Assembly: GCA_037974965.1 (NCBI GenBank)
Contig: JBBPFI010000001.1
Coordinates: 2,418,001-2,482,000 of the forward strand
Source: Dacryopinax spathularia
Taxonomy: Eukaryota; Basidiomycota; Dacrymycetes; Dacrymycetales; Dacrymycetaceae
DNA length: 64,000 nt
Direction of reading: 5' to 3'
Shown: piece after piece, positions 1 to 42,863 of the stretch
Numbering within the stretch: position 1 is the first letter of the stretch
How the letters are laid out: every line of letters starts with the position of its first letter
The notes under the pieces: model-generated
What the model was told of the DNA's origin: nothing
Databases searched by the model: none
The model's input: the letters and a program-made list of their open reading frames with translations, nothing else
Translations under genes and position numbers: made by a program

Positions 1-1
1 C

Positions 2-9153: not shown

Positions 9154-9211
9154 ATGGTGCTAGTCGGACGTCCGGGTGGCAGAAGCTTTTCAGTCTTCTG
9201 TTGCAGGCCTG

Positions 9212-11464: not shown

Positions 11465-12032
11465 TACGATACACTCACATGCAAGTCCTCAATATCAGCT
11501 ATGTACACAGCATGATTTAAGTGGACGAAGTAAAACGGCACAGAACGGAGCTCCGCTCAATCCCCAGACTCCCGCACGGGGTTCCGCCCCACCCGACCCA
11601 GAAGCGGAGCCCCGTTCAGCCCTTCATTATGCTAAGGATCGGAGAAGCGTTATCACTTGAGATTGTGGGACCGCTATGAAGGCAAGCGGCCTGGTTGTGG
11701 GACAACGTGTGTATTACGAAGAGGGGCAAGAAGCCTGGTGGGTCTGCTCCGCCACTCAGCTCCGTCCAGGGTCTCGCCCGGAGGGATTAGAATCAAGCCG
11801 GAGCTCCGCCCCTCTACCTCCTCACCCTCCCTAGTGCCGCCTCCCTGAGCTGGGAACCTGCTGACTTTGTCGCTTGTGCCGCTGTTCTCGTGTAGGTGAC
11901 GGTGCCCCAAGTGGAGGACGAGTGGAGCTCCTCTCACAATCTTAGTGCTCTGTATATCGATCTCTTCCGGGCGTGACCGACAACGGCCGCGCCACTGCCC
12001 TTCACGGATCCGGACGACTTGCTCCGTTCAGC
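11465..12032. other. Spacer after the transposase with two copies of the island palindrome
   Basis: This stretch holds exact CGGAGCTCCG copies at 11546 and 11799 and near copies at about 11603 and 11924. An ATG near 11675 opens a frame (GLVVGQRVYYEEGQEAWWV) that could be a first exon of the next gene, but I could not join it with confidence. Confidence 0.3.
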
Positions 12033-13603
12033 ATGAAGCACGCAATGGAGGATCTTCGCGTCCCGACGATCTTCTCTTCTCCCTCTCGTGTCACGGAACA
12101 CGCAATGAAGCAGGCGTTGGACGAGTATATCAAGCAGTGGAAACAGCTGCAGGACCTTGCCGATACCAGGGTGACCTCGGCCAATGATTGGCGAGGGGTA
12201 TACACCGCGGACCCAGATCATCATCACGCACGGTCCTTTCTCGTTCTTTCCCAGCCCTTTGTTCTGATTCAAGTTGAATAGGCACTAGCAGATCAGATCA
12301 TGGAGCTTGCCCCGGAGTGCTGCCTATCCCTTTCGGAAGCCTTTCTGGAGCCTTGGTTACCCCGTTATCGCGAAGCCCTGCGACGGATCGGGCAATGTCC
12401 AGCAACGGCCAGTGTCGAAAGCGAGAAGGTCTGCTGATCTTCTATCGCGGAGGAGTTGACATCCAACATGTTACAGGCGTCCAGTGGCACAAGCGCTTTT
12501 TTCCAGCGGACTGAGGTCGCGCTGCCTGTGATACCTTCCGCATTGTACGAAATCTTGGCGCGATGCTGACACCTCTAGCAGGACGAGATCCCATCATCCA
12601 CCGGGCCTGCTATCCAGGACAGCGAAGAGCGTAGCGAAACTTTGTATGTATCATGTTCACTCTCGGTTCTCCTCTCCCAATAGACTCACAATGAACAGGT
12701 ATGCTGGGCAAGCTGGGCCTAGCAGAATTATGACCTACCCGGATCCCCCAACTCCGCTTACCCATTCACCCCACAGTATTCCGGACGGTACTTCATATTC
12801 CAACGGGGACCAAAGAGTTGTAAGCCCGGACTATTGTTCGCTGTACATCTCGCTTTTGACCCTGCAGCAAATTTCGTCCGACAAGCATGCAGTACCTGTC
12901 GTCACGGAGGAGCATGCTGGCAATCTGGCCGAACTTGACAAAGTTTGGAAGGACAACAAATTGCGCCTGCTCGCGGTCCTCGCAGAAAAGGTTCGGACTG
13001 GAGAAGATCTTACGTTTCTGCAAGCTTGCGGGGAGGACTTCGTGGTATGCCTTCCTCACCTCGCTCGGGTTCGCGTCCATCACATTACAGCAGTGTGATT
13101 TCTGCCTGTATACCTCCACCCTTTCCGAGGGGCCGGATCCAAGGCCTCGTTGGAACTGTCATGCGGTTGAGGATGGAGATGGTTCCTGTGTTCACTGTGT
13201 ACGAGCAGGACGGCAGTGCACGCTCTCCGGTACGCCTTCTCGTTTGCACATAGGGGTCTCTTCCTATCTTCTGTAGGCCATCGTCAAACAGGTGGGGAGC
13301 CACGCTACCGTCCACTGACTTCAGATCGCCTCCGCCGTATGGACGACATGTTTCGCGCGGAGATAGAAGATCGGCGGGCGGCCGTCGACGAGCAGATTGC
13401 GGCTCTTCAAACTCGTATAATGAAAGGCATTTTACGTGAGCGATTCTAATTGACGAAGGAAACCGTGTTTACCCTCTTCCGCAGGAGCGAAGCAGAGTTT
13501 CGAAACTGCACAAGCATTGCTTCGTTCTGCGCGTACTCATGTCCAGTCAGGCTGGAGTTACCTTGGGGACGCTGAGGGCTTCTTTCCGAATGCCGAGACG
13601 TAG
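12033..13603 (+). CDS. Cys-cluster protein A, island family shared with the 38-40.7 kb gene (function unknown)
   Basis: I propose a spliced gene starting at ATG 12033. Its exons give a lysine-rich helical start, then ALADQIMELAPECCLSLSEA with FLEPWLPRYREALRRIG, a Ser/Pro-rich middle (near 12600-12820), a helical stretch (ELDKVWKDNKLRLLAVLAEK), a cysteine cluster at 13094-13219 beginning CDFCLYTST, and a C-terminal coiled-coil-like part (DRLRRMDDMFRAEIEDRR, KQSFETAQALLRSARTH), stop TAG 13601-13603. Cysteine spacing is C-x2-C-x17-C-x9-C-x2-C-x6-C. The second half fits a Zn2Cys6 cluster, while the first spacing is longer than usual. The gene on the far side of the island (38072-40657) has the same parts in the same order, which supports both models. 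A role in DNA binding is inference. Exon edges at 12.4-12.65 kb are the least certain. Confidence 0.55.
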
Positions 13604-15137
13604 GGCTGTGCGATATGGATTTACGCACTAGCCCTGGTAGGAGATCCAAGCTCTGAACCCAATATGTATTTCTGTGTACCATGGATTGCAATCGGGAAAC
13701 TCCATCTCGAGTCCTCGACGCCCGCTTGGTACCACACCGGCACCCCCTCTTGTTTCCCTTTCGCCCGACGTGCCTGCATAAAGTATTTCGGAGCTCCGAC
13801 TGCTTCCCTTGAACATCGCCCAATCGATGTCTTCAAGGTGGCAAGACAGGTAAAGCTGAGGGGCACAGTAACAAAGCTCAAATCGATCCACTTTGCATTC
13901 TGGCATTGCATTGTTTTGATCGACATGGACTACTTGGTTCTGGTTGTATAAGCCTGGGCCTCGAGTCACCTGTGCTCACGCCGAGCGCTGAGCGGATCTA
14001 TACCAGAATCGGCGTTCCGTTTCCGCGATTCTGCAGGTCCCTTCGCTGCCCTCCGTGCACCACATCGCCAGAAAGCCACTACTGAACTGCGGTCTATATC
14101 TTCACTTCCAGGCGCAGCGGCTGTTGTTCCTGTGGCATCTTGTTCTATTCATCGTCGGCCTTTTCGCTACGTGCCGTCTTTCTGCAGTTAGAACCGCGCG
14201 ACTCTTGGCTTCTCCGAGGACGCGTTTGAGCGAGACGCAGAGAGACCTCCACCCTAAAATGTCTCAATCTCTTCCGACCAGTTCTCTCGTTCCGTGGACA
14301 CGGCTGTCGTCCTCTCGATCAGTCGGCTTTCCGCATGCCAGGACGCCGCATTGTCCTACTCCTCAAGCAAGGAGGTGGAAACTCAAGTCGAACTCGAGGT
14401 AACGATGTGAGGGTGCCTACAGAAACGGGCCTCCTTTTCGGGACTGACACATTAGCACACTGTCGCCGAATTCCGTCCTGAACGAGCATGAGGGAGGGTC
14501 GTGGAACCCACATGCGTTGTGGAGGCGGATCGAGCCACCAGGAGGGTATCGGGTTGTAGGCTGGTCAATCGGACATGGGAAGGTAGAGATGGAGCCGTAC
14601 CACGCCAAGCGGCACCATCTTGTTTTCCTCCTTCCAACATGTTCCAAGATATTGCGATCACACACGGACTGAACGCCAGCTTACCCGGCAATCTTTCCGG
14701 TTGGCCTGACAACTGTCTGATGTTTCTGAAGGGCGACACACCGTTAGACCGGGAACTCGGTTGCTCTCCTACCACGGGCTTTCTTTCAGGTGCCACGTTT
14801 CAAATACAGAGCGCAACCCCACTGGGCGACTCCGAGGAGCGCACAACGGCAACATTGCGCTTGTTTGACGCCTTGAAAGGTGTGTGCTCAGCAGTACGAT
14901 GGATTACAATGCAAGGGAGATGTGAGGAAAGTACAGTTCACGTGGGAGGGAACTTGTGTTACAATGCATCTGTATGGGTCTAACCACGAGTTGTCCGTCC
15001 TCCAGCGCCATCCTGTCCCGCAGCTCGCTCCCATGCGTATCACATCGTGAATTCCACTCGAGGACGTAAAACAAGATGGTAGCTCCTCGGCCCCTTTCCG
15101 AAGAGAAGGCTCATCCATCCTCGTACCCTGGATGGCG
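13604..15137. other. Island stretch with short frames, no recognisable gene
   Basis: One exact island palindrome lies at 13789. A plus-strand frame around 14455-14665 (WRRIEPPGGYRVVGWSIGHG) looks coding-like and might be an exon of a small gene, but I could not find convincing partners. Nothing else is supported. Confidence 0.3.
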
Positions 15138-16135
15138 TCAGAAGGCAACGACGTCCCACCTCGGCTCCCCCGGTTTCCATCCAACACGAACCATCATCTG
15201 AAGAGTTCTTCCGGCGCCAGTGTCTGTGATGCAGATCATTAAGAGTGCTGGAGCCAAGCGCTGCATCTGTACACAAATCTCTTCGTTCTCCTGTTGCAAG
15301 CCGGCGGACGATAGATGAGCCGAAATAAGGAGTGTTTTCAACTGAGGCAAGCGAGAGAGGAAAGCGAGGACAGAAGGGTCGCTCAACTCCTTGAACAGCT
15401 CCATGGAGTTCAGCAGACATACCAACGACAAGTCAACGAAGGACAAGGAAATACCTGATACTTGAGGCGGGTCGCACGAATATGCAGCGTAGTGTAGGAG
15501 CAACCGCGACGAAGAAGCAGGGGAGCAGTTTGAAGTAGGTCCTCCATGTCATGCACGGAGATGCGCAGTACGGAGAGAGTACGGCACTTGCAGATGTCCT
15601 CGCCAAGCTGCAATGCGAGAGACAGTTGTGCAGGAGGGGTTGCAATTTCCAGCGTGACGAGATGGTTAGTCGGTATCAGGAGGGTTGATAGAGGGGCCGG
15701 CACATTGATCGCTTGCAAACGAGGCAGGGCGCACTCGCTCAGCTGGGACACAGCGAGGAACAAGACGTCCTCGAGCGCCGGGTGAATAGCCAGATCGCAA
15801 AGACTATGCATCGACCGCAGCACGCGTACAACAAGCCTCGTCAAGGCAGTGTGGGATAGAGAAGCACCCGTTGGCAAACGATCGAGCACAAAGACTTGGA
15901 CATAATTTGCGAGATGAGGCATTGCGTCGAGAGTTTGCAGAAGCTTGAAGTTCGCGGAGGATGACAGCGGTTTATATTGCTGCGGTCTGCGGTAGACCAA
16001 GCGATTTCTTTGGTGGCGAAGAATACGACAGGTGAAGCCTAGGGCATTGAGCGTGGAGAGATCTTGGTTAGCAGCAACTTCGTCCATGATGTCTAGAAGG
16101 AGGTCGAGGGGATAAGGCGTTGTGGACGGCGGCAT
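15138..16135 (-). CDS. F-box-like protein (substrate unknown)
   Basis: From the ATG at about 16135 the protein starts MPPSTTPYPLDLLLDIMDEV, followed by STLNALGFTCRILRHQRNR and LVYRR. This is the pattern of basidiomycete F-box-like proteins: a Pro-Leu-(D/E)-Leu-Leu-hydrophobic start and a C-R-x-L-R-x-x-R/H end of the first ~45 residues. The rest is a leucine-rich run with LRR-like spacing (TRLVVRVLRSMHSLCDLAIH, LPRLQAINVPAPLSTLLIP). A short intron near 15420-15480 is needed to reach a second exon (FLSRLPQLKTLLISAHL), which ends at about 15138. An upstream in-frame ATG at 16186 would add 17 residues. Such proteins normally recruit substrates to SCF ubiquitin ligases. They are greatly expanded in Agaricomycetes, so its presence in the island need not reflect a dedicated role. 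Confidence 0.55.
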
Positions 16136-17110: not shown

Positions 17111-17187
17111 AGGGATGCGACGGCCTGGGTTCTCCCAACGCCACAAATGCATTAAGAAGGGACATAAGGGACATGCATAGGAACACG

Positions 17188-18879
17188 TCATGGCTCTAAC
17201 TTCTGCCGCTCCTCTAGGATCCAGTCGAAAATCTTGGTCAGGCGGGCTTGTTTTCTCGTATACTCCTCCAACCTCACATGAAGGGAAGCGTTTTCCTGAT
17301 ACAATGACAACCACGCTCCCGCGAAAGCTATGGTAGCAGCTATGAGGGAAATCAGCAAAGACTCCGCCGGGATGGGGATCTCCCACCGTAGGAGTCCATG
17401 TCCTCCGCTATATTCTGACCCATCTCCCGGAGCACGAGTAGGAATTCCCGTGGATAGGGTGGAAGGCCTGCGCTCCAATGCGGGCGTTGCTCGCTGATTG
17501 ACTGCAAGTGCGAGGTGCTCTGCTCATCCCCAGCTAGATGTGGGGTGGGTGTGCTGACCTCATTGGTTTCCCGTCGCTTCCCTTCTACGACACGTCTCTC
17601 TCGGGGTAGGGAAGTGGCCGGAGGCAGCTCATCCGTCTTACCGAATCCTGGCAAGGCGTCGTTAGAATGGGCATCTACCCGCGAGCAAGATGTCCTCACG
17701 CTCAAAGAAGGAACAATTCCGTCTCGGGCTGCAACCTGAACAAGCCCATCGACCCGTGTATCTTCCCCCCAAACGCTGCGGTCCATCGCATGAGCAGACG
17801 ATTCGGTTACCTTCGACGTACGCTGCCTCCCAGCATGCATCACACTAGGAAGACATAGTGATTGGACTTCGTGGGTTCATTCAGGGAAGACATTGGAATG
17901 GGACGTACTGTCATATCCTTTCCATATTTCAGCGCGTCTTCCGGACTCAGTGCATCAGTGATCGAATATTTGCTGCTTGCTTCGACGCCTCCAGATTTAT
18001 GTACACGCTTCCCTCTGGGAGACGCGCACGTCGTTGCGCCGTCAGGTGAATGAGATCGTTCAGGGCTCTGCAAGTCATTACCTGTCTGCTGCGACGAGGA
18101 CGATCTGCGTTCACTCACACCGAGTGACGGGCAGCTCTCCTGCTCCTCTATGAAGCGAGCATGTTTATGTTGGTGGCTTGGACTCGGTGGGTTCGATCGC
18201 TTTCTCTTCAGGATGGAGCTGGTCCGATTCGGCGGCAGACCTTCCGAGCTTCGCGCCCCTCGCGGTAATTCTACTGATCTCGCTGAAGTAGAAGGCTCGG
18301 TTACCGGATTGTCCAACAATCCATATACGCGCTTCTTGATAGCCTCGTCGAGTACAGAATACGCATCCCTTGGCATCATTCCCAAGAGGGTTGGCTCTGT
18401 TTCACATACTTGCAATACCAGGCCCTACTATACTGAGTGATCCTCGCACACGGGTACTTGCCCTGTACTCACTTGGACTCCTGCGGTTTGACCTGCGTAT
18501 ACCTTCGCCCAGTCCCCTTGGTCCAAACGTTTTTGCGCATACGCACATAGATGTTCCCACTTCGTTCTGAGCGGGATCGCCATTTGGCCACTGAGCAAAG
18601 ATGAACGTGCTCTTGTGACGCCGTGGTCCAGGTGCCATTTTCGGACTTCCGGCCACAAAGACCCTGAACCACAGGTTTGACTCCGAGGATCGGAGGCAAA
18701 CCGGATGTCCGCTCGCTAGGCGTACGGTCGAACTTCGAAGGTACTACCGAATTATCACGATGCATTCGTGGAGAGCAAAGCACATAAATTTCGAGAGAAT
18801 CCTTACGGGCGTTCCCGGAGAGCCGTACATTCAAGTGGAATCGCTTGGCTATTCCCTCCTCTGCACACAGCAGCTCCAA
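17188..18879 (-). CDS. Membrane-anchored protein of unknown function, left-arm copy
   Basis: Minus-strand exons give, in order: KRFHLNVRLSGNARKDSLEI and RMHRDNSVVPSKFDRTPSE (near 18.7-18.85 kb), PEVRKWHLDHGVTRARSSLL (about 18.6 kb), ETEPTLLGMMPRDAYSVLDE with a long Ser/Pro/Arg-rich disordered part (18.4-17.85 kb), another disordered segment (17.84-17.45 kb), and a final exon with one hydrophobic helix (LLISLIAATIAFAGAWLSLY) followed by a charged coiled-coil-like tail, ending at 17188. The layout suggests a tail-anchored protein with a cytosolic disordered N-terminal region. The true start is not fixed; it probably lies upstream of 18879 in another exon. I recognise no family. The right-arm copy lacks the 5' part. 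Confidence 0.5.
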
Positions 18880-19228
18880 TAACAGCCATTTTCTGCGTCT
18901 TTTCCTGCATGGCTTGTTGGGAGCGAGACACTGTAGGGCTTGAAAGGACGTGCACCTCTCGGTCAGACGGACTTACACGAGTGCTTAAGACCTACCTCAA
19001 TAAGTGCATAGGCTGCACAACACGGCGAACAATGGTGCGCCATGCCCTCATATTGACCTTTGCAACGCACCGAGGGGCGGATCCTGAGTGTTGCACACCG
19101 GACGTGTGGACGTTAACAGCCGTAGACAACAGCCGTGGGCGTCGCAGCATGAAAATTTGTCACAAATTGTAGTCATATCATGAGAGGGCGCCGAGGTCAT
19201 CGAATGCAATATATCCATCTGTTGGTGG
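18786..19228. other. 443-bp block present in the left arm only
   Basis: In the right arm the sequences on either side of this block are joined directly (33690/33691). The block continues a coding-looking frame of the membrane-anchored gene (for example LSGNARKDSLEIY), so loss from the right arm is more likely than gain on the left. I see no target duplication, terminal repeat or useful microhomology at its ends. Confidence 0.85.
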
Positions 19229-19480
19229 TGGAAGCGGGAGACATCGATGTAGCTGTACAGAGTTCACCGACATCCCGAATAAGGTTCACAGAGCGGAAGC
19301 GGAGTTCAAAAACGGAAGTGCCTATCTGAGGGTATGAAGCCACCAGGCATGTGATCCACATCAGACAGGGGGTCATCATACAGTAGGTAGTCAATCATAC
19401 AAATCCGACCACGTCGCCAATAAGTCCCATATTGCCGTCTCCATTTCCCGCAGTCCAAAGCATATTCGGTCACCGCCGCT

Positions 19481-21361
19481 ATGAGGGGAGCATTGCAAGC
19501 GCGGGATCCTTGGCTGAAAGCCCACAAGGGGCCCCAGAACGACAGGCGGCGGAGCGCGTCGTCCTGTGCCCACTACCATGTTACGGCAGCCCTTCCCACC
19601 CCCCATACTCTCATTCGTCGATATCCACCTCCGGCAGCCTCGTCGGCCTCTCTGTCGGATGAGGAGTGGGAGCTGCAGGGCAGCATAGAGGGTGAGCGGG
19701 ACGAGGATGAGGGGGACAGTGATTATGGCGGACTCAGAGGAGTCCGCCAGCACTGGGACAAAAATCAGGACGAGGACGAGGACGAGGAAATGGAAGTGGA
19801 AGTGGAAGTGGACGAGGACGAAGAGGATGAGGACGAGGACGAAGAGGACGAGGACGAGGAAGAGGAAGAGGACGAGGACGAGGAGGCCTCGACGCCGTGC
19901 GCAGGAGTGAGTTACGCGTCGCTGGTGAACCCCGAGGCCGCTGTGGAAGAACTCCTGGCAGCCCGGCACATCGGACGTTTCGCTTTCGCCTCGCTTCGTC
20001 GGGGAGAATGTCTTCTCGATCGCTTCCTGGTGTGGCGTAAATTGGGCTGGGGTTTGTATTCGACCGTGTACATGGTGCAAGACCTGTGGTGGGCATACCT
20101 TCTCTCTCGATAGCGCATGAACTGACGATCACAGGGCCGACGAGCGACGATATTACGCGGTGAAAATCCTAGAAGCGGGCCAGACTTTAGTCCCCGAGCT
20201 CCGAAGCGAAGCACGGTTCATGACCAGGATAAGGGAAATGAATCCCGCACATCCAGGCTACGCGCATGTTCCACATATCATCGACACTTTCCAAATTCGA
20301 GACTGGTTCGGCACGCATCTCTGCATGCTCTTGCCTTTGCTGGGCACGCACCTGGATCCATCATGGACAGCATCGCAACCGATAGGCGTGAGCTGCCGAA
20401 TTCTCGCCCAGCTCCTGAAAGCTCTTGATTATTTGCACTCGGTTTGTCGAGTCGTACATGCCGGTGAGTAGAGTCATGCATGCCTCCTTTAAGCGCATCT
20501 CAAACATATACGTTCTTAGATATCAAGGTTGCAAATATCCTGTGTCAGCTCCGCCCCGATTTCTCGCCGGAGCAGGTTCTCGCAAGCCAACCGCCCCGTT
20601 CTCGTGGAGCCCTACACCTAACCAACGGTGCTGGCATGACTCATACGGTACACTTACTGAATTCCCAGCCGTTTGAACCCGATAACAAAGACAATCCTCA
20701 CATCGTACTCACGGATTTCGGGCAAGGTACGTGCACCAGGCGTTCGGTCGCTTCTCTTCCTGAACGTTCTGTTAGCTGCCTGGGTCGATGACCCCCACTC
20801 TCGGCAAATCCAAACGCCAAGACACCGAGCGCCAGAGGTCTTGCTGGAAGGCAACTTTGGTTCCAGAGCGGACATATGGAGCGTGGGCTGCGTGGTACGT
20901 GCAATTGCATCCGCTTGAGCTCGTCATTCCTCATGACACAGGCGTACGAAATAATCACCGGGAAACATCTTTTCGTCCAGGAAGCCAAGGGCATGCATAC
21001 TTGGGTTGAGCGCAATCTATCCCTAATGAACACAATGTTCGGTCCGTTCGACCCTGAGTTCCTCTCGCGATGCCCCCGGAGCTCTCAATACTTCGATCCA
21101 CACGGTTCGTTCCCGTCAATTCTCATTCGATGATCGCGGCTGACACCCCAGAAAACAGGTACTCTTCTTCGCGACGCATTGGAATGTTCCGCAGATCTGG
21201 GAGCAAGGGTGGCTTCCGCACGGTCAATGATGGGTGAAGAACACTCCCTCTTCGTCTCGTTTCTGCGCGACGCCTTACAGCTGGATCCCCTTCTGCGCTC
21301 TTCCGCTGCACAACTTCTGCTGCATCCGTTCATTCGGCTGTCGCAGCCCGGACTTGAATAG
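19481..21361 (+). CDS. SRPK-like serine/threonine protein kinase, left-arm copy
   Basis: ATG 19481 starts a basic N-terminal part, then an acidic run of almost only D/E (about residues 90-140, 19750-19890). The kinase domain follows: LVWRKLGWGLYSTVYMVQDL (glycine loop), YYAVKILEAG (lysine), PHIIDTF, LLKALDYLHSVCRVVHA joined across an intron to DIKVANIL (catalytic Asp and Lys, as in SRPK H-x-D-I-K), IVLTDFGQA (DFG), HRAPEVLLEG (APE), ADIWSVGCVAYEIITGKHLF, and LQLDPLLRSSAAQLLLHPFI at the end. Stop TAG 21359-21361. Six exons with introns near 20092-20133, 20465-20518, 20728-20775, 20895-20940 and 21104-21158. SR-protein kinases phosphorylate Arg/Ser repeats, and SRPK-like genes are much expanded in fungi. 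All catalytic residues are in place, so activity is plausible; the substrate is unknown. Confidence 0.85.
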
Positions 21362-22896
21362 CCCGCAAGTGTTTTCATTCAGATATTGTGCTCCATAGAC
21401 ATCGTGCTCTGAATCGAATACGGCCTTGGTGAAGGGTAGGGAATCTGTGCGTGTAGCCTGTCGGCTCCAATGGTGCACCCACCCGGCCTTAAGTCTGACC
21501 GGGTATTCCGTTTGGCGGTTTTTGACAGGCCGCGAAAAGGTCCAACACGGAACTCCGTTCTGAGTAGAGAAAGATCTGACGCATATCCGTTAGCGTGTCT
21601 GACCCCTTCAAGCCCCTGATCCGCATTAATTGCTTAGGGGAGCATACCTGCAGCGTTCACATAATCTCCTGCGCATACCTGACTCCTCCCATCTCGTTTG
21701 CACCGTCTTTCCGGTGTGCAGAAGGCAGATATGTTGCCGCCCAATACGTGCATCCATGCGTGACCACTATCATGTGCCGATCGGACACGCCTAACTCGTA
21801 CGTAACTACCACGCATGGATACGGAGCATCAAATTCGTCTGCCCTGGCGACGATATTCGGCAGTGAGGAAGGAGTTCCGGTGAGGCTGTGAGTGGCGCAC
21901 TTGTGCGAAAACGGAGTTCCACCCATCTTCGCAACTTCTGCCTCTCGGTGAGGTGACCGCGTTGGTTCTCCTTACTATGGGAGGACCGTTCCCCAACCGA
22001 GGAGCCCAGAAATAAGCGGAAAAGGCAGACAGAGCAGATGTGCCGGCGACTACCTAATTGCGGCACGGGTGATGTCTTACATCTATCTCACCAGGCGCGG
22101 TGTGCGAACATGTTCTGTGCAACCACCATCACCAGCAGCCGTTCTTTCTCACCCACTGTTCGGGACCCTATGTACTGGATCCGTGAAATCGATCAATAAC
22201 AGCTATTCGTGTGTCTTCTGTGAAGGCCTCGGTCTTCCGAGCCGGAACGGACCTCCGATCGGCCCACTCCCTCGGTCCAAAGAAGCTCCACCCCGTTGAT
22301 GTTTTCGTTCTGATCATTGACAAAATACGAGGCAGACTTGTGGAACCAAGTTAGGGAATGTGGTCAGCTCCTACAGCAGAAGACGAGGTCACGTCTACAA
22401 CGAGGACATCACTGCGCGCGCGCTCTTCCGGTCTGCCCTCTTCCGGTCTGAGGGTAGACGAGAACGGAATTCCGTATTCGGCCGGAGACCCGCTCCCTGA
22501 TTTGCCCCCGCTGGTTTGATTGATGTCTGATGCTTCCCTCCGGAAGACTGCGCGCTCGTGCTACGAACACCCGGTCCTTGGGATAGAATCTCTGATGTGT
22601 CACAGTGACAATCGAGCAGAGACTGACGTACATTACACACAAGTGGTGTGCGATTTCATTTGTCACAGCGGAATGATGAAGCCACATTCTCAACGGAACG
22701 GAGTTCCGTTTCCAAGTTCGGGAGACGGAGACGGAACCTACTTCGTGGCTTGAGCAGCAACCCAAACACCGTGATCTCCTACGAAAGTGGGGTTGACTCG
22801 GTCTTACCACACGTGTGGAATAAGCACCCTCGGCTGTCCCTCTGAAGCTCGTCGGAAAAAACTCATGTCGCTCTGGAGACGGCCATCACCGCACAA
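21362..22896. other. Inner part of left arm, palindrome-rich, no firm gene
   Basis: Exact palindromes lie at 21548, 22248, 22465 and 22699, with near copies at about 21869 and 21912. Open frames at 22409-22810 (-) and 21595-21891 (+) exist but lack family features. This is the densest noncoding-looking stretch of the motif. Confidence 0.4.
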
Positions 22897-23844
22897 GATC
22901 GCAACCAAGGGACGTTCAGCCGACCACCACATAAACTGGGAAAGAAACCGCGTTGTTTACATGGGCATTTGAACCTAAGATGGCCCGAATTAGCACTACG
23001 CTTTGTGCCGGAGTCTGAACACACCAATTTTGCAGCAATTGAAGGAAGCGCATGGGACTTGCACCTTGTCTCACAGTAGCTGTTGTAATATGCCGGACGG
23101 GCAGGTCCACTAGGTCATGAAGGCCTGCGCGAGGCTCCCCACGGATGTACAAACCCGCCTCGGGTAAGAGGACGTTTTGACAGGAACGCCTTGCATGCTA
23201 GGCATGAAAAGCTCGGACGCACGGCATGTCTCTTGCTGGGGGTGTTGCCTTGGTGATCCAGCAAATGCCATCGTCCGTCCTGGCTGCTGGGAATCGGAGG
23301 GCCGGTCCGGAGCCGAGGTTGTCATGGAGGTCCGAACGAGTGGTAAATGCGAGCGCTCTCTTGATCGATTACTAGCTTCGGAGCTCCGGCAGGAAGTTGC
23401 CTCGCGGGCGGACGCTTGAGGGGAGATCCATTGCATTGGTGAAGGCAGGAGGTTCCACATCCACCCGTCTCTGTGGGCATCCCCGATGCTTCATTTCTCC
23501 TTCCACACGAATACATGACAGTCGGCCCCGCGTTGGAGCGCTCGTCGTCGGGCAACAACGACTCCGATCTCTGGCTGAGAGTGTTCAATATTGACGGCGA
23601 ATCATTCAAGCAACCAGGTAACCGTAAGATGTTTCTCCCCTGGCGCAGAACGCCTCAAGAGTTAGTTGCAGAGTCCATTTTGTCTCGCATGACGTTGCAT
23701 CGATCGGAGCTCCGACCGTAGCTGACGACATTTGAAGCCGGACGGAGTTCCGAAAGAGTCAGGGAGCCAGACCCACCAAATCACTTCTTAACTCACACCT
23801 TGACCAGTACACCCACTTACGCACCTTTACCAGCCACTTTCACT
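22897..23844. other. Left part of the 7.1-kb centre between the arms
   Basis: Unique sequence begins at 22897. It contains three exact palindromes (23379, 23705, 23743), the last two only 38 bp apart and about 100-140 bp before the ATG of the next gene, where a promoter would be expected. Short frames are present without a recognisable product. Confidence 0.4.
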
Positions 23845-25485: not shown

Positions 25486-25575
25486 CCGCTATTTGCCTTC
25501 TCGCTATCATACGCCCACCGTACTCTATGGCGATGTCTGGATGAGCATACGTCCAGATTCTCACTCATCTTTTCA

Positions 25576-27682: not shown

Positions 27683-28093
27683 ATGGTTCCAGTCCGAGAA
27701 GGTGTAGTGTACTACGTTCTGTGATTCCACATCGTGCTTGCTAGGAAGCGTGGGTGTAACTTGCGCTGGTGGCGCCATGTGACATAGAAGTGGGAAACGT
27801 GCTTTGCACTCAACATTTCAGCTTTGCTTGAGGAAGTTGGACGTTATGCCGTGGTTTCTAACCACGACCAGGGCCCACGGTCGCTCTTAAGAAGCTGACT
27901 GCCTTACTCCTGGTCACAGCGATGTAACGGAGCAATAGTTCGGTTGGGCAGATGCCGCCCGTTTCCGTGAACGTTCCCTGACTTGCAGGACTTCTGCATC
28001 GGCCCCTGCATCCCGTCGGACTTCCTCCCCCGGTTGCGCCATGCGGAAAACGGTATACCTAATTACGAAGTATCGAACCAATTGAGATAACCA

Positions 28094-30020: not shown

Positions 30021-31557
30021 TATTGTGCGGTGATGGCCGTCTCCAGAGCGACATGAGTTTTTTCCGACGAGCTTCAGAGGGACAGCCGAGGGTGCTTATT
30101 CCACACGTGTGGTAAGACCGAGTCAACCCCACTTTCGTAGGAGATCACGGTGTTTGGGTTGCTGCTCAAGCCACGAAGTAGGTTCCGTCTCCGTCTCCCG
30201 AACTTGGAAACGGAACTCCGTTCCGTTGAGAATGTGGCTTCATCATTCCGCTGTGACAAATGAAATCGCACACCACTTGTGTGTAATGTACGTCAGTCTC
30301 TGCTCGATTGTCACTGTGACACATCAGAGATTCTATCCCAAGGACCGGGTGTTCGTAGCACGAGCGCGCAGTCTTCCGGAGGGAAGCATCAGACATCAAT
30401 CAAACCAGCGGGGGCAAATCAGGGAGCGGGTCTCCGGCCGAATACGGAATTCCGTTCTCGTCTACCCTCAGACCGGAAGAGGGCAGACCGGAAGAGCGCG
30501 CGCGCAGTGATGTCCTCGTTGTAGACGTGACCTCGTCTTCTGCTGTAGGAGCTGACCACATTCCCTAACTTGGTTCCACAAGTCTGCCTCGTATTTTGTC
30601 AATGATCAGAACGAAAACATCAACGGGGTGGAGCTTCTTTGGACCGAGGGAGTGGGCCGATCGGAGGTCCGTTCCGGCTCGGAAGACCGAGGCCTTCACA
30701 GAAGACACACGAATAGCTGTTATTGATCGATTTCACGGATCCAGTACATAGGGTCCCGAACAGTGGGTGAGAAAGAACGGCTGCTGGTGATGGTGGTTGC
30801 ACAGAACATGTTCGCACACCGCGCCTGGTGAGATAGATGTAAGACATCACCCGTGCCGCAATTAGGTAGTCGCCGGCACATCTGCTCTGTCTGCCTTTTC
30901 CGCTTATTTCTGGGCTCCTCGGTTGGGGAACGGTCCTCCCATAGTAAGGAGAACCAACGCGGTCACCTCACCGAGAGGCAGAAGTTGCGAAGATGGGTGG
31001 AACTCCGTTTTCGCACAAGTGCGCCACTCACAGCCTCACCGGAACTCCTTCCTCACTGCCGAATATCGTCGCCAGGGCAGACGAATTTGATGCTCCGTAT
31101 CCATGCGTGGTAGTTACGTACGAGTTAGGCGTGTCCGATCGGCACATGATAGTGGTCACGCATGGATGCACGTATTGGGCGGCAACATATCTGCCTTCTG
31201 CACACCGGAAAGACGGTGCAAACGAGATGGGAGGAGTCAGGTATGCGCAGGAGATTATGTGAACGCTGCAGGTATGCTCCCCTAAGCAATTAATGCGGAT
31301 CAGGGGCTTGAAGGGGTCAGACACGCTAACGGATATGCGTCAGATCTTTCTCTACTCAGAACGGAGTTCCGTGTTGGACCTTTTCGCGGCCTGTCAAAAA
31401 CCGCCAAACGGAATACCCGGTCAGACTTAAGGCCGGGTGGGTGCACCATTGGAGCCGACAGGCTACACGCACAGATTCCCTACCCTTCACCAAGGCCGTA
31501 TTCGATTCAGAGCACGATGTCTATGGAGCACAATATCTGAATGAAAACACTTGCGGG

Positions 31558-33438
31558 CTATTCAAGTCCGGGCTGCGACAGCCGAATGAACGGATGCAGC
31601 AGAAGTTGTGCAGCGGAAGAGCGCAGAAGGGGATCCAGCTGTAAGGCGTCGCGCAGAAACGAGACGAAGAGGGAGTGTTCTTCACCCATCATTGACCGTG
31701 CGGAAGCCACCCTTGCTCCCAGATCTGCGGAACATTCCAATGCGTCGCGAAGAAGAGTACCTGTTTTCTGGGGTGTCAGCCGCGATCATCGAATGAGAAT
31801 TGACGGGAACGAACCGTGTGGATCGAAGTATTGAGAGCTCCGGGGGCATCGCGAGAGGAACTCAGGGTCGAACGGACCGAACATTGTGTTCATTAGGGAT
31901 AGATTGCGCTCAACCCAAGTATGCATGCCCTTGGCTTCCTGGACGAAAAGATGTTTCCCGGTGATTATTTCGTACGCCTGTGTCATGAGGAATGACGAGC
32001 TCAAGCGGATGCAATTGCACGTACCACGCAGCCCACGCTCCATATGTCCGCTCTGGAACCAAAGTTGCCTTCCAGCAAGACCTCTGGCGCTCGGTGTCTT
32101 GGCGTTTGGATTTGCCGAGAGTGGGGGTCATCGACCCAGGCAGCTAACAGAACGTTCAGGAAGAGAAGCGACCGAACGCCTGGTGCACGTACCTTGCCCG
32201 AAATCCGTGAGTACGATGTGAGGATTGTCTTTGTTATCGGGTTCAAACGGCTGGGAATTCAGTAAGTGTACCGTATGAGTCATGCCAGCACCGTTGGTTA
32301 GGTGTAGGGCTCCACGAGAACGGGGCGGTTGGCTTGCGAGAACCTGCTCCGGCGAGAAATCGGGGCGGAGCTGACACAGGATATTTGCAACCTTGATATC
32401 TAAGAACGTATATGTTTGAGATGCGCTTAAAGGAGGCATGCATGACTCTACTCACCGGCATGTACGACTCGACAAACCGAGTGCAAATAATCAAGAGCTT
32501 TCAGGAGCTGGGCGAGAATTCGGCAGCTCACGCCTATCGGTTGCGATGCTGTCCATGATGGATCCAGGTGCGTGCCCAGCAAAGGCAAGAGCATGCAGAG
32601 ATGCGTGCCGAACCAGTCTCGAATTTGGAAAGTGTCGATGATATGTGGAACATGCGCGTAGCCTGGATGTGCGGGATTCATTTCCCTTATCCTGGTCATG
32701 AACCGTGCTTCGCTTCGGAGCTCGGGGACTAAAGTCTGGCCCGCTTCTAGGATTTTCACCGCGTAATATCGTCGCTCGTCGGCCCTGTGATCGTCAGTTC
32801 ATGCGCTATCGAGAGAGAAGGTATGCCCACCACAGGTCTTGCACCATGTACACGGTCGAATACAAACCCCAGCCCAATTTACGCCACACCAGGAAGCGAT
32901 CGAGAAGACATTCTCCCCGACGAAGCGAGGCGAAAGCGAAACGTCCGATGTGCCGGGCTGCCAGGAGTTCTTCCACAGCGGCCTCGGGGTTCACCAGCGA
33001 CGCGTAACTCACTCCTGCGCACGGCGTCGAGGCCTCCTCGTCCTCGTCCTCTTCCTCTTCCTCGTCCTCGTCCTCTTCGTCCTCGTCCTCATCCTCTTCG
33101 TCCTCGTCCACTTCCACTTCCACTTCCATTTCCTCGTCCTCGTCCTCGTCCTGATTTTTGTCCCAGTGCTGGCGGACTCCTCTGAGTCCGCCATAATCAC
33201 TGTCCCCCTCATCCTCGTCCCGCTCACCCTCTATGCTGCCCTGCAGCTCCCACTCCTCATCCGACAGAGAGGCCGACGAGGCTGCCGGAGGTGGATATCG
33301 ACGAATGAGAGTATGGGGGGTGGGAAGGGCTGCCGTAACATGGTAGTGGGCACAGGACGACGCGCTCCGCCGCCTGTCGTTCTGGGGCCCCTTGTGGGCT
33401 TTCAGCCAAGGATCCCGCGCTTGCAATGCTCCCCTCAT
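31558..33438 (-). CDS. SRPK-like protein kinase, right-arm copy
   Basis: Mirror image of the gene at 19481-21361 (both ends map by 52919 minus position). All exon blocks I compared read identically, including the acidic run, VK lysine, H-A-D-I-K, DFG and APE. The two copies are transcribed towards each other across the 7.1-kb centre. Near identity implies either a very recent inverted duplication or continuing gene conversion. Confidence 0.85.
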
Positions 33439-33690
33439 AGCGGCGGTGACCGAATATGCTTTGGACTGCGGGAAATGGAGACGGCAATATGGGACTTATT
33501 GGCGACGTGGTCGGATTTGTATGATTGACTACCTACTGTATGATGACCCCCTGTCTGATGTGGATCACATGCCTGGTGGCTTCATACCCTCAGATAGGCA
33601 CTTCCGTTTTTGAACTCCGCTTCCGCTCTGTGAACCTTATTCGGGATGTCGGTGAACTCTGTACAGCTACATCGATGTCTCCCGCTTCCA

Positions 33691-35288
33691 ATGTGCTTTG
33701 CTCTCCACGAATGCATCGTGATAATTCGGTAGTACCTTCGAAGTTCGACCGTACGCCTAGCGAGCGGACATCCGGTTTGCCTCCGATCCTCGGAGTCAAA
33801 CCTGTGGTTCAGGGTCTTTGTGGCCGGAAGTCCGAAAATGGCACCTGGACCACGGCGTCACAAGAGCACGTTCATCTTTGCTCAGTGGCCAAATGGCGAT
33901 CCCGCTCAGAACGAAGTGGGAACATCTATGTGCGTATGCGCAAAAACGTTTGGACCAAGGGGACTGGGCGAAGGTATACGCAGGTCAAACCGCAGGAGTC
34001 CAAGTGAGTACAGGGCAAGTACCCGTGTGCGAGGATCACTCAGTATAGTAGGGCCTGGTATTGCAAGTATGTGAAACAGAGCCAACCCTCTTGGGAATGA
34101 TGCCAAGGGATGCGTATTCTGTACTCGACGAGGCTATCAAGAAGCGCGTATATGGATTGTTGGACAATCCGGTAACCGAGCCTTCTACTTCAGCGAGATC
34201 AGTAGAATTACCGCGAGGGGCGCGAAGCTCGGAAGGTCTGCCGCCGAATCGGACCAGCTCCATCCTGAAGAGAAAGCGATCGAACCCACCGAGTCCAAGC
34301 CACCAACATAAACATGCTCGCTTCATAGAGGAGCAGGAGAGCTGCCCGTCACTCGGTGTGAGTGAACGCAGATCGTCCTCGTCGCAGCAGACAGGTAATG
34401 ACTTGCAGAGCCCTGAACGATCTCATTCACCTGACGGCGCAACGACGTGCGCGTCTCCCAGAGGGAAGCGTGTACATAAATCTGGAGGCGTCGAAGCAAG
34501 CAGCAAATATTCGATCACTGATGCACTGAGTCCGGAAGACGCGCTGAAATATGGAAAGGATATGACAGTACGTCCCATTCCAATGTCTTCCCTGAATGAA
34601 CCCACGAAGTCCAATCACTATGTCTTCCTAGTGTGATGCATGCTGGGAGGCAGCGTACGTCGAAGGTAACCGAATCGTCTGCTCATGCGATGGACCGCAG
34701 CGTTTGGGGGGAAGATACACGGGTCGATGGGCTTGTTCAGGTTGCAGCCCGAGACGGAATTGTTCCTTCTTTGAGCGTGAGGACATCTTGCTCGCGGGTA
34801 GATGCCCATTCTAACGACGCCTTGCCAGGATTCGGTAAGACGGATGAGCTGCCTCCGGCCACTTCCCTACCCCGAGAGAGACGTGTCGTAGAAGGGAAGC
34901 GACGGGAAACCATTGAGGTCAGCACACCCACCCCACATCTAGCTGGGGATGAGCAGAGCACCTCGCACTTGCAGTCAATCAGCGAGCAACGCCCGCATTG
35001 GAGCGCAGGCCTTCCACCCTATCCACGGGAATTCCTACTCGTGCTCCGGGAGATGGGTCAGAATATAGCGGAGGACATGGACTCCTACGGTGGGAGATCC
35101 CCATCCCGGCGGAGTCTTTGCTGATTTCCCTCATAGCTGCTACCATAGCTTTCGCGGGAGCGTGGTTGTCATTGTATCAGGAAAACGCTTCCCTTCATGT
35201 GAGGTTGGAGGAGTATACGAGAAAACAAGCCCGCCTGACCAAGATTTTCGACTGGATCCTAGAGGAGCGGCAGAAGTTAGAGCCATGA
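33691..35288 (+). pseudogene. Membrane-anchored protein gene, right-arm copy lacking its 5' part
   Basis: This copy matches 17188-18785 and retains the disordered region, the hydrophobic helix and the coiled-coil-like tail (stop 35286-35288). The 443 bp that precede it in the left arm, including coding-looking sequence, are missing. Upstream it is now joined to sequence that in the left arm lies beyond the block, giving a chimeric frame from 33525. It may be a decayed copy or start at an internal ATG. One substitution (34913) changes Asn to Ile relative to the left copy. Confidence 0.5.
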
Positions 35289-35562
35289 CGTGTTCCTATG
35301 CATGTCCCTTATGTCCCTTCTTAATGCATTTGTGGCGTTGGGAGAACCCAGGCCGTCGCATCCCTCTTCTCTGCCGGGCGAGAGCGTCTGTAAGAACCAT
35401 CAACAGCTATACAGCCGAAAAGTGGCTATGCGCCCGTAGCACCGATAAGTCCCTTTTACATAGGGTCTCGGCGCTGAGTGTACATTCCTGCCCTCCATAT
35501 ATAAGCCTTACCAAGCGTCGTGGCGGCATCATCTCGTGCCAGCTTACCGACTTCGAGACGAG

Positions 35563-38071: not shown

Positions 38072-40657
38072 CTATTTCTTTTTCGGGCCCTTGGCCGCGG
38101 CGGGCGAGCAATGCGACAACTCAACTCTCTTCCTCTCACCCTTCGCAGGATCCGCTGGCTCAGATGGACGCCACGCATGAGGAGAATGCCCAGGAGTTCT
38201 TAGAGTGTATCGACTGTTCGTTCGGGATGAGGGAGCGGTAAGATACAAGGGTTGTGGTGGGCATAAACGAGTTAGAAAGGCCAATGTCTAACCGAGCTGG
38301 CCCTCCGCCATCTTGTACGGTACATTCACATGTCATTCTAGTAGTTTGCCGTCAAACGGACCCTGTACAGTCAAAGCGTATATTCACTCACCCTTGCCTC
38401 CTCGTACTGCTGCAATAGGTGAATGTCTGCCTCTAAAGCAGCCAGCTGCTCGAACGCGGCGCTCATGGAGGATTGAGCAGACTTGAAGACAGTTTGGGCG
38501 CGATTGAGCTCAGCCCTCGCTTCTGAGGAGGAGTGTCAGGTCCCGTAGGTGAGCTAGTACTCTGAACAAACCCTGGATGAGCTGAGCTGGCTGAACGCCA
38601 TCCACCGACTTCTCCTCAGCCTCAGCCACGGCACCGTTTTTGACTGTAGACTTATTCTTCCGGGACATCTCATCCCGGAAAAGCTTTTGCAGCCGAGGGA
38701 TGCGATCCATGGTGAGGTTGGACGGGGGTGGAATCGGCATATTCCGATTGAATTCTGCGGACTATCAGCAGACAGACAGGGACCTGAGGAAGGGACTTAG
38801 ACCTTTAAGCGAACAGGCTTGCTTCCGAGTGTAACGACACATGTCGCAAGCCCACTCGGCCTTGCCACTCGCTTCTTTCGATGCGCCCTTTCCAGCTTTG
38901 GTCTGTCCGGGCTCACACTTGAAAATGAGATCGTCGTCCTTCACCGTTGCAAGATATAGACACAAGTCGCACTGCACGCCTACCCTTCAATACAGTTCAT
39001 ATACGAGAGGTTCTCACTCACAACCAACTCAGGCGAGCACTTCTTCAGGAAAGCGTGATCGCTTCCTTCCTGCAGTTTCCGCTCCAATAGGGCCATCACT
39101 TCGCGTCTGCGATGCTCCCAGCCGGAGGTGGAGTCGGCCCGCTTTTTCTTCATAACCTGCGTAGCTCCCGGAGGTCCGTCCGCCCTCTTACGCTTTCGCG
39201 AGGAGCTGAGTTCCTGCTTTGATAACCTCAGTATTCCGTCCGAAAGAGGTGAGCGGGTGTCATACCTGGGATAGAGGTTCGGCAGCCGATCCTCCAGAGG
39301 TCACTGCGCCCTCGACACTCCCGCTGGTTCCCTGCTTGTTCTGTGGACCGAATGCTTCTCCTCGCTTGCGCGTGACCATCGTGGTTTTAATGGCGGCCGA
39401 CGATGGTGTCCGTTGTAATTGCGTATCCACACAAGAGCCTGCGGGGGGACCCTCATTGTCCAAAGCGGTGAAAGTGACATTCTTACGGGATAGTTAGGTC
39501 TGATAGAATCAAAGAGGAGCCACATACCTGATCTTGGCCAGGCGACTCGGAGCTCGCCACGTTTTCGCCCATATGGAGGATTTCCCAAAGCGCCCGCTCA
39601 GCTTCATCCTCAATCTCATGCTCGATCCCTCCCCGGATCTCCTCCGGAGCAATATCTGGCCCAGAAAGCTCCTTTGTAGAGGTGGTGGTCGTGGCATTCG
39701 CGATTGATTTAGCTGTAGGAAATGCATCGTTGCCAAATGCGGTCGGCGCCGAAGCGGCCGTGGACGTGAGCGGCCCTGATGGAGTTCCCCCCTCGTCCTG
39801 CCCAACAGGCGACTCGGCGCTCAACAGGCCGGTAGGCACGACTGCGTCAGGCGGAACTTGCTCGCCGGACAGAGACGCTGGGGTATCCGTAGCATCTGCA
39901 TCCCCATCGATCGCCCCCTCTTGCGGAGGTAGAGAAGGGGGAAGAGTGCGGGGCGATTTCTTCGCCATGCGCGGCACTGGTCTGCGCCCGCCCGCCTTGT
40001 TCGATACCGCGGTGCTTTTCTGTTTCGGCAAAGGTCTTTCTTGATCGCTCTCCGAAACCGGTGCAGGATCCCGTGGGGAGGCGACCGTACCTGTGCCAGA
40101 CGTATTCTTGAGGGTGGGAGAAACGCCTCTCGAACTGCGCGGCGACGTAGGGGGAGCATTCTCTTTGAGCTGTGATGGCTCTCCTTCTTTGGCGCCAGTG
40201 CCGTTCTCTTCCAGCGCTTTCTCCTTCAGTGCAGCGCTTCTAGTCACCCTTCCGGATGCGGGGAGCTCACTGCGCTTGGATGGAGAAACGGTCTTGGATC
40301 CAGTGCTATTCGGTGCGGATTCGCCGCTTTGCGAAAGATCGCCGGCGATTTCGAGCTCCTTCCGAATGGCAGGGGGGAATAGCGCTAGGAAGCTCTGCGG
40401 AAGCTCTAGGCAGAACTCCGGTGCATGCGTATAGATCATCTTCGCAAGGTCCTAAGCGCATATCAGCAACGGTTCCCAATGATCTTAAATCCTATACCTA
40501 CGATGTATTTTAGCTTCTGCAGTTTAAACAACTCGGGCCATGATTTTTGACTCCTCAGCAGATTCTTTTTGTTTGAAAGATTAATGGCAGCCAACCAAGT
40601 ATCAGTATCATGCTTGGATGGCTCTGGAATAGACTTCGTAGTCCTTGTTTTGTACAT
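38072..40657 (-). CDS. Cys-cluster protein B, paralogue of the 12.0-13.6 kb gene (function unknown)
   Basis: ATG 40655-40657 starts MYKTRTTKSIPEPSKHDTDT. After an intron near 40440-40500 comes DLAKMIYTHAPEFCLELPQS with FLALFPPAIRKELEIAG, matching ALADQIMELAPECCLSLSEA and its continuation in gene A. A long Ser/Pro/Thr-rich disordered part follows (40.35-39.5 kb), then a cysteine cluster near 38.8-38.98 kb starting CDLCLYLATVKDDDL with spacing C-x2-C-x14-C-x22-C-x2-C-x7-C, and a C-terminal coiled-coil-like part (MDRIPRLQKLFRDEMSRKNK, RAQTVFKSAQSSMSAAFEQL). The same order of parts as gene A, on the opposite strand at the other side of the island, supports a real family. The last exon (to 38072, ending in PKKK) is tentative, and an exon between 39.0 and 39.5 kb is not resolved. 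Confidence 0.6.
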
Positions 40658-40722
40658 TGTAGCGTAAGGGTTTGTGGAGTACGTGTATTGGTCGTCTAGG
40701 TAATAATGATATGGATTGACGA

Positions 40723-40893
40723 TCTTCGTTGTGGGTGTATGCGTCGCCTAGAATTGCCTCCGCGCAGACCTCCGGGTGAAGCGGATGTCCGTTTGGAACA
40801 CCAGGCTCAACGACTTCTCCGTTGTGAGTGTTCGCGTCACCGGGATTTGCCTCCGCAAGAGGACACATTCCTTAGCGGATGTCCGCTGACGAA
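40723..40893. repeat. Imperfect tandem duplication, period ~93 bp
   Basis: Two copies share TTGCCTCCG (40754 and 40847) and GCGGATGTCCG (40781 and 40875), with about 70% similarity between. They lie just upstream of gene B, where its promoter should be. Confidence 0.6.
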
Positions 40894-40997
40894 TGACGCA
40901 GAACAACATTTCCGTCCTGTATGGATGCGTCAGCTGTTTTTGCCTTCCAACTGGAATCTTTTGCATCGGGAGGGCATACAAGCACTGCGACCATAGT

Positions 40998-42863
40998 GTC
41001 CCCCCCCCCCTCTTGAACAGAAGGGCACCTAAACTCTTCCCCCATGGTCAGTCACCGGAACATTCCTGTCAGACGGTGTTCAGAGGCCCGCTGACCCATT
41101 GAGGAGGCGACAAGAGATCTAGAAGTACGTCGTCAAAGGAGAGATAAACCCTGATCTACCTGCAGTTGGTCGTCCCCGCGTAGAGGTAAAGACCCAACAT
41201 GGGCTGAAACGGACAATTCCTTGGTCTTCGCGGTCGTCCCAATGGGCTTGATTGATGTGAATAACTTGACCGAAGAACAGCAGAAAAACAAAACTTCCTC
41301 TAAAGACTCCGACCGGAGTTCGCATCCAACGACAGTGAAGCGTCCGTCGAACAGCTGAATCAGATCCAGCTGCAACGGGCTACAGCAATGCTTGAACCGG
41401 AACACCGTCGTCCGCCCGGACTAATCAACACAGGAAGAGAACGGAGCTCCGATTGCGGTCTGTGGCCCGCGGCCCATGCGGGATCCTAACTCCAATCCCC
41501 CAAACAACAACTTCAGAACGCCTGATGGATTCCAGCTTTGCTCCGAGGCCGAAAGTAAACGCCGGTGACAAATGTGTGACCAGCCGTGCCGCGCAATGGT
41601 TGGTGACTCCAGCCCTATCCGTTGCAGACCTTGGACCAGATGGTCAGCCGAACCTTTAACTAGTCCTTGCGGCCAAAAGTTCAAATGGAACTCCGGTTTA
41701 GTGTTTCAATCAACGTTCCTGCTGGTTTTGCGTAATGAATGCATTTTGTCATCGAATGCGGGGTGTTCTAGCCTGGAAGTCACTTTCCCCGCGCACCTGC
41801 CAGTGTGACGCCCACGGCGGCATCAGCCTGAAAGGCCTTTTGCGCACTGTCCACGAGTCGGACGAAACAGTGTTGGGTACGTTTAGGAACTGGATCGCAT
41901 TGAGTTTGTTATGGTAGAAGTGACCTTCATGTCACGATACACGCCAGGAGCAATTCGTTATGTGCCCGGCGCTTTTTATGTACGGTCGTCCGTTTAGCAT
42001 GATTCCAGACAGATTGCCGAAACGGAGCTCCGTGCCCACGACGAGGGTTTACAACTCGTCTCCCTGTGAAGTCCGTAAGCCTAGGGTAGCCACATGGTCC
42101 GTGAATCCGGCCTGTGTTTCCCTACCGAGGGAGATGGGGACTGTTCATTTTCCAGTCCTAGTCTCTGTCTCTCTTAATGGTCTTCCTCCTTTCTTGCGGC
42201 TCGATCGGGACTTCCCACTGAACCGCGCGGCCGCGGATGAGTTGTAACTGGAAGAAGTACACACGTCTTTTGTGCCAGTGGATTCTCCACATTGGCTGTC
42301 ACACCATTGTATTTCTTTTTCCTTTCCTACTTCCTCGGAAGTTGCCAGGTAAAAATACTCTCAATGGAGCGGGGCACTTCTGCGGACCTGCGAGGTCGGA
42401 TCCTCCGGCAACCCGCTGATCCGGACGTCTTTTTGTCTGGCCACAACAAAGACGTGACGGAAGGCTACTTGTCTCCACCTCGGAGCGGAAACGAGGGGCT
42501 CAGTGGTTCAGTCCATCCTATAAACGAGTCGGACGAAGGATCGTCTGCCGCCTTGTTGAGGGCGAAATCGTGTATTCCGGAGGTCCGTTGGCATGTGCTA
42601 TCTTTGAACTTGGAAGGTCACCTTCCACCCGCGTACTATGAAAGGCCCTCAACCGGAGCTCCGAACGTCCTCATTCAGCATGCCGGAGGTCCGTTTTGGG
42701 GGCTCCTGCGCACACTGGGACCCTAGTCACTTATCTGAAGGTATGACGTGGCAGATCTCAAAAGGCATGCTTTTATACAATGTTGAGGTGTCAAGTGGTA
42801 CAGCGCGCGTCTGGTATAGGATGATGCGATCTTGAATGCAGCCCGATGATGGGTACTGGCAAG
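40998..42863. other. Right end of the island: C run, palindromes, one open frame
   Basis: A run of about a dozen C lies near 41000. Exact palindromes are at 41442, 42023, 42578, 42654 and 42684. A plus-strand frame from ATG 42364 to 42726 (MERGTSADLRGRILRQPADP) contains three of them and might be a small gene, but shows no known motif. No palindrome occurs to the right of this stretch. Confidence 0.35.

Follow-up and report, generated by a model that had tools for sequence, protein, structure and literature searches.

The palindrome CGGANNTCCG is concentrated in three giant elements, which make up 0.9% of the genome and contain at least 145 of its 702 exact copies (67 in the C1 element, 40 in the parts of the C8 copy that were read, and 38 in the parts of the C11 relative that were read). 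These carriers are cut-and-paste transposons of 40–113 kb in a fungal-type genome, and each begins with a CxC5-CxC6 cysteine-cluster gene. Judging from sequence features, the palindrome is probably bound by a protein that the transposons themselves encode.

Element Boundaries and Copies

We analyzed a 64,000-bp stretch of DNA (the window, C1:2418001-2482000) from a 29.2 Mb genome in 24 contigs, which its gene families lead us to regard as probably that of a basidiomycete. The first-pass annotation had described a palindrome-marked island with limits at 11546 and 42693. Confinement to 11.5–42.7 kb is ruled out by the element termini: a DNA search with window positions 1-16000 as the query places the left edge at 9069, where identity to contig C8 starts, and the right edge lies outside the window at C1:2539790. 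The C1 element measures 112,722 bp (C1:2427069-2539790), of which the window covers only the left part.

9069-64000, forward strand: giant DNA transposon, left 54.9 kb; identity to the C8 copy starts at 9069, AAATCCGG lies just outside both ends, and the element continues past the window
9061-9068, forward strand: left copy of the 8-bp target-site duplication AAATCCGG; the right copy is at C1:2539791-2539798
17111-22899, forward strand: large internal inverted repeat, left arm; only this arm has the 443 bp at 18786-19228
30020-35365, reverse strand: right arm of the inverted repeat; 5,346 bp aligned, with 2 differences
42700-64000, no strand: site-poor interior of the element, containing repeats and further transposon-like frames

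The C8 copy spans 106,827 bp and is bordered by the perfect 8-bp duplication CGCCTTCC. Reading both ends at the C1 and C8 loci revealed identical terminal bases and different flanking 8-mers. Identity between the two copies reaches 99.9% in the leftmost 8 kb and 99.7% in the rightmost 40 kb, with two intervening stretches at 98.5% and 99.1% (C8 was read except for ~38 kb). On C11 there is a divergent relative of 39,692 bp (28.7 kb of it read), with ends homologous to these and CAAAAGTC as its duplication. The target-site duplications at these three loci are thus three different perfect 8-mers. Exact matches to the 20-nt left terminus are confined to the three elements in this genome; allowing 3 mismatches adds one more place, compared to two for the backward control. 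Similarity between the two ends of an element is short and imperfect. We regard it as nearly certain that the C1, C8, and C11 elements are transposons.

The arms of the internal inverted repeat are separated by 7.1 kb. Transposon-like frames in the site-poor stretch are probably nested insertions; they include a frame at 56203-58375 resembling a DDE_1 transposase (15.2 bits, below the cutoff of 22) and one at 61455-64000 with a likeness to Gypsy-type polyproteins that was judged by eye only. A further frame at 52271-53332 (reverse strand) matches DUF6532 barely above cutoff (24.5 bits versus 24). Bordering the site-rich part, from 42791 to ~43200, tandem repeats keep an 8/16-bp register, and long frames run through them.

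Genes of the Elements

Gene A, which we presume to be the transposase, lies just inside the left end.

9212-11464, forward strand: gene A, intron-split CxC5-CxC6 cysteine-cluster gene (CxC6 85.4 bits, cutoff 27.5; CxC5 77.8 bits, cutoff 26.9); start estimated
12033-12392, forward strand: gene D1, from a small family common to the C11 element; limits estimated
39483-40648 (reverse strand), C1:2503010-2503954, and C1:2523405-2523704: other members of the D family; limits estimated
17388-18424, reverse strand: gene B, cysteine-rich, common to the C11 element; no Pfam match
34052-35088, forward strand: second copy of gene B, in the right inverted-repeat arm
23845-25485, forward strand: gene E, a frame shared with the C11 element
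28121-29846, reverse strand: gene C, encoding a cysteine-finger protein, common to the C11 element and partner of CxC6 loci

The cysteine cluster associated with KDZ (Kyakuja-Dileera-Zisupton) transposons is present in gene A, with both CxC5 and CxC6 over cutoff. The KDZ core (PF18758) scored below its cutoff of 26.6 in all three families, at 18.5 (C1), 20.7 (C11), and 15.3 bits (C17), with partial matches at model positions 119-217 in C1 and C11 and 119-161 in C17; a two-exon reading of gene A gave 17.8 bits, also below cutoff. Here, C17 denotes a family with a related CxC5-CxC6 element at C17:122001-129000 and a copy at C1:2.19 Mb (C1:2186249-2199017). The CxC5-CxC6 proteins of the C1 and C11 families match at ~41–73%, depending on the stretch. 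A genome search returned 52 KDZ matches and 28 CxC6 matches, and comparison of the two sets found no KDZ match within 20 kb of any CxC6 locus. This separation is in line with the oyster mushroom, where CxC5/CxC6 frames are reported not to adjoin KDZ transposons (PMC7641404).

Genes B, C, D, and E are common to the C1 and C11 elements, and none received a Pfam name among the frames scanned. Near the right end, the C1 and C8 elements carry a PRP8-derived gene (C1:2532464-2539708, outside the window), which is split among several frames in the element and shares 97% identity over 558 residues with a C5 locus that has a 1,425-residue open frame.

Gene C is paired with CxC6 loci across the genome. 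Its finger retains eight Cys/His positions that are invariant in three elements (C-x2-C-x7-C-x4-C-x2-CC ... C-x2-H). A protein search with the C17 gene C homologue gave 27 matches, of which two weak ones (E 1.4e-4) were excluded; each of the 25 that reached an E of at most 1.5e-6 has a CxC6 locus no more than 20 kb away and is on the 3' side of that locus. Conversely, 25 of the 28 CxC6 loci have a gene C partner. The nearest-hit rule yields 24 pairs, and C14:118387 also has its own downstream partner, C14:104079, at 14.3 kb. The protein search of the genome gave no gene C match for the CxC6 loci at C4:1750268, C10:636333, and C8:912854. At six CxC6 loci (one each on C2, C6, C14, and C15, and two on C7), gene C is ~14 kb off in the same orientation, and these loci perhaps represent another enlarged-element family.

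The plant SHI-type domain DUF702 scored 16.8 bits in the C17 gene C homologue, below the cutoff of 20.6, and gave no match for gene C of C1 or C11. The predicted structure of the gene C protein had a mean pLDDT of 36, too low for use, and a sequence search against solved structures returned 7 matches (best E 0.66). We consider the gene C protein a candidate reader of the palindrome.

Enrichment of the Palindrome

The window contains 34 exact copies of CGGANNTCCG, compared to a mean of 1.49 and a maximum of 5 in 100 dinucleotide shuffles, indicating that the enrichment proposed in the first-pass annotation is real. Since the element extends past the window to C1:2539790 and includes the site-poor right 21 kb, all 34 copies lie inside it.

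9165-42693, no strand: 33 exact CGGANNTCCG sites, 27 of them non-redundant, the first one 96 bp inside the left end; the 34th is at 59577

Between 11546 and 42693 there are 31 copies rather than the 25 counted earlier (inner bases GC 11, GT 4, GG 4, AC 3, AT 2, and CC 1). The inner bases had been described as limited to GC, AC/GT, GG/CC, and AT, a rule that missed copies with TG (3), CA (1), CT (1), and AG (1), as well as the two CG copies at 9165 and 11065. The latter pair disproves the supposed absence of copies from the left 11.5 kb, as the copy at 59577 does for the right 21 kb. Six copies in one arm of the inverted repeat mirror six in the other, so some copies do have common flanks, contrary to the earlier claim that none are shared. 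Flanks otherwise differ, and 27 of the 33 copies are non-redundant.

Genome-wide, the 702 copies compare with 491 for the pattern read backward, and copies outside the three elements are close to control density. The C1 flanks hold no copy in C1:2398001-2427068 (29 kb on the left) and one in C1:2539791-2552000; those of C8 hold one in 290001-309238 and none in 416066-428000. The edges are those of the element and not the limits first drawn. The palindrome was said to mark this island and nothing else. It is indeed concentrated in three elements, but both the C8 copy and the divergent C11 relative carry the motif.

Among palindromes of the 4+2+4 form, CGGANNTCCG ranks first in the non-redundant window island (27, next 4), in C1:2482001-2539790 (33, next 7), and in the parts of C11 read (38, next 6). 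Close pairs of sites (60 bp or less) number 46 genome-wide versus 0 for the control (C1 12, C8 12, C11 21, C15 1), and 45 of the 46 fall within the three elements. Shuffles, backward-pattern controls, and the spacing spectrum described below rule out chance or base composition as the source of the enrichment. Decay of methylated CpG also fails to explain the pattern, since the CpG ratios of the elements (0.97 and 0.98) equal that of comparison DNA (0.98). We found no mention of the CGGANNTCCG string in the literature searched.

Placement Relative to Ends and Genes

The outermost palindromes occupy similar positions in the two divergent families. At the left end, a site lies at 96 bp in both C1 and C11; at the right end, the outermost site leaves 86 and 88 bp in the two families, and the last 332 bp of C11 contain 8 sites.

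We compared site positions with 16 gene starts, 14 from genes common to C1 and C11 and 2 from a frame duplicated in C1 that was added after its upstream sites had been noticed; all of these starts are estimates. (The duplicated frame looked like an F-box gene by eye; Pfam gave no match for it.) The count covers C1 apart from the right inverted-repeat arm and the site-poor interior, and all but 11 kb of C11. In C1, 16 of 59 sites fall within 500 bp upstream of a chosen start, where 3.8 would be expected (P 0.0006 by circular shift); conserved coding sequence contains 2 of the 59 (9.8 expected, P 0.005). C11 shows no significant upstream excess, whether within 500 bp (7 of 38, 3.5 expected, P 0.19) or within 1 kb (9 of 38, 6.8 expected, P 0.37), and the depletion of sites from its coding sequence, with 0 of 38 against 9.3 expected, is borderline (P 0.05). 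For 15 of the 16 starts a site is present within 820 bp upstream; the remaining one has none within 1.5 kb. Gene E is preceded by sites at 93 and 131 bp in C1 and at 140 bp in C11. For gene C in C1 the upstream distance is 365 bp, a value taken from site positions, as this region belongs to the arm omitted from the count.

The near-terminal positions shared by both families (96 bp in from the left, 86–88 bp in from the right), the site array at the right end of C11, and the nonsignificant upstream counts in C11 would all be compatible with sites that serve transposition only, as many transposase-binding sites across the element with no regulatory role. However, most sites are tens of kb from the ends, and both the upstream excess in C1 and the presence of a site within 820 bp of 15 of the 16 starts speak against this explanation, which we consider unlikely.

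Architecture of the Palindrome

Inverted pairs of the half-site CGGA occur 2 bp apart 43 times in C1 and 38 times in C11, compared to 0–5 times at every other spacing from 0 to 15, so that among inverted pairs the 2-bp spacing alone shows a clear excess. The spacing spectrum shows no excess of everted pairs and a small one of direct pairs 10 bp apart (7 and 9 versus 1); the comparison DNA, consisting of the 29 kb left flank and the site-poor interior of the C1 element, has an excess of its own at 4 and 12 bp. Outside palindromes, half-site density is 10.1 per kb in each family, against 10.5 per kb for comparison DNA. When the A and T positions are relaxed, C11 contains 59 instances of CGG-N4-CCG versus 38 exact copies; the outer triplets may therefore be the core of the palindrome.

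Inverted CGG triplets with a fixed spacing are likewise found in Zn2Cys6-type binding sites, and CGG-N4-CCG is a layout recognized by dimeric Zn2Cys6 factors. A host transcription factor of this type could thus read the palindrome, in which case the element would have recruited a host regulator for its own genes. The preference of C1 sites for upstream regions and the surplus of relaxed over exact copies in C11 agree with this idea. On the other hand, near-control density outside the elements means that no dense host regulon is visible, the end positions are conserved between families beyond what a promoter role alone would need, and no Zn2Cys6 domain was found among the subset of element frames scanned. 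Taken together, we judge a host reader improbable.

The retention of sites across duplicated modules is mixed, with four homologous sites kept at 82–87% identity and others carrying one mismatch or lost, and this counts against the explanation that we favor, a site bound by an element-encoded protein. The alternative of a by-product, with a tiny sequence multiplying inside the elements by tandem or segmental duplication and no protein bound to it, accounts for the copies in duplicated modules and the inverted repeat but is highly improbable, given 27 non-redundant copies with different flanks in the window island and two families at 41–73% protein identity with the same spacing and end positions.

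A Different Motif in the C17 Family

No CGGANNTCCG is present in the 7 kb read of the C17 element, which has another repeat; a single motif for all CxC6 elements is thereby ruled out. The other repeat, CACAAACCAGAC, was chosen after inspection of repeats, and 33 of its 35 genome copies are at two C17-family loci (control pattern, 6). It is a dispersed repeat with arrays of opposite orientation; because part of the copies sit in a regular 102-bp tandem array, not all are independent. This result supports, from two families only, the view that each family has its own private motif.

Proposed Role of the Palindrome

The suggestion that an element-encoded protein binds the palindrome, which would then resemble the subterminal repeats of large DNA transposons in role, agrees with the termini and 8-bp duplications, the gene at the end, the fixed end distances, the sites before genes, and the divergent second element; binding and the reader are what we infer. 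We think it quite likely that the palindrome serves such a protein as a functional site, with the gene C and gene A proteins about equally likely readers. Our favored model, in which it is a private cis-site of a giant-transposon lineage, bound by an element-encoded dimer or complex for both transposition and gene control, is likely as well.

In this model, the left end of each element would encode a transposase-type protein with CxC5-CxC6 clusters, and gene C, further in, its cysteine-finger partner. A dimer of either protein, or a complex of both, might bind the two CGGA half-sites 2 bp apart. Sites ~90 bp from each end could help join the ends for excision, and sites before element genes would set their expression, so that the element would regulate itself. 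More tentatively, and with somewhat less than even confidence, CxC5-CxC6 transposons could constitute a two-gene lineage of transposase and gene C. Each family would write a private DNA address, read by its finger protein at both ends and before genes, which might have let some families become self-regulating giants of >100 kb carrying host-derived genes.

Comparison with Known Systems

To our knowledge, Kyakuja elements have been reported without terminal inverted repeats. The elements described here resemble KDZ transposons in their 8-bp target duplications, described for Zisupton (PMC12730594) and Cryptococcus KDZ1 (PMC12810828), and, through gene A, in a presumed transposase with a cysteine cluster. 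The Cryptococcus KDZ1-KDZ3 elements, as portrayed there, are ~9–11 kb long with 139–241 bp terminal repeats and a CxC1 cluster (PMC12810828), whereas ours are 40–113 kb long, with short imperfect terminal similarity, CxC5-CxC6, and a core below the KDZ cutoff. Moreover, our elements are at none of the 52 KDZ matches in the genome.

A closer parallel in gene content is the insert in MSH4 of a sporeless oyster mushroom, a mobile sequence of 6,792 bp with CxC5 plus CxC6 in one frame and small internal repeats; its authors found no KDZ transposon nearby and linked the insert to Copia retrotransposons (PMC7641404). Compared with that account, the CxC5-CxC6 gene here lies just inside one end of an element with exact ends, 8-bp duplications, and a partner gene. 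Our elements suggest a role for CxC5/CxC6 genes, which had remained an unexplained companion of retrotransposons in oyster mushroom (PMC7641404). These genes also gain a conserved partner in gene C.

Among the literature matches listed, we saw none describing giant elements of the CxC5/CxC6 or KDZ type. Giant gene-carrying fungal transposons are known mainly as Starships, very large elements in which a single presumed mobility gene, placed at one end, reads inward and other genes are carried along; the Starship captain is a DUF3435 tyrosine recombinase. The elements described here share the large size and this layout, including cargo genes, but their end gene matches CxC5 and CxC6 and not the DUF3435 tyrosine recombinase. 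Precisely bounded elements of 40–113 kb thus carry a type of mobility gene other than that of Starships.

TnpA of En/Spm is a second element protein that reads many short subterminal sites and also acts on element expression. By description, the system proposed here would be similar, with a second element protein, many short sites near the ends, and a role in expression. With a motif this private, one binding assay could test whether a transposon has a regulon to itself. In contrast to En/Spm, the sites here are spread through elements of up to 113 kb.
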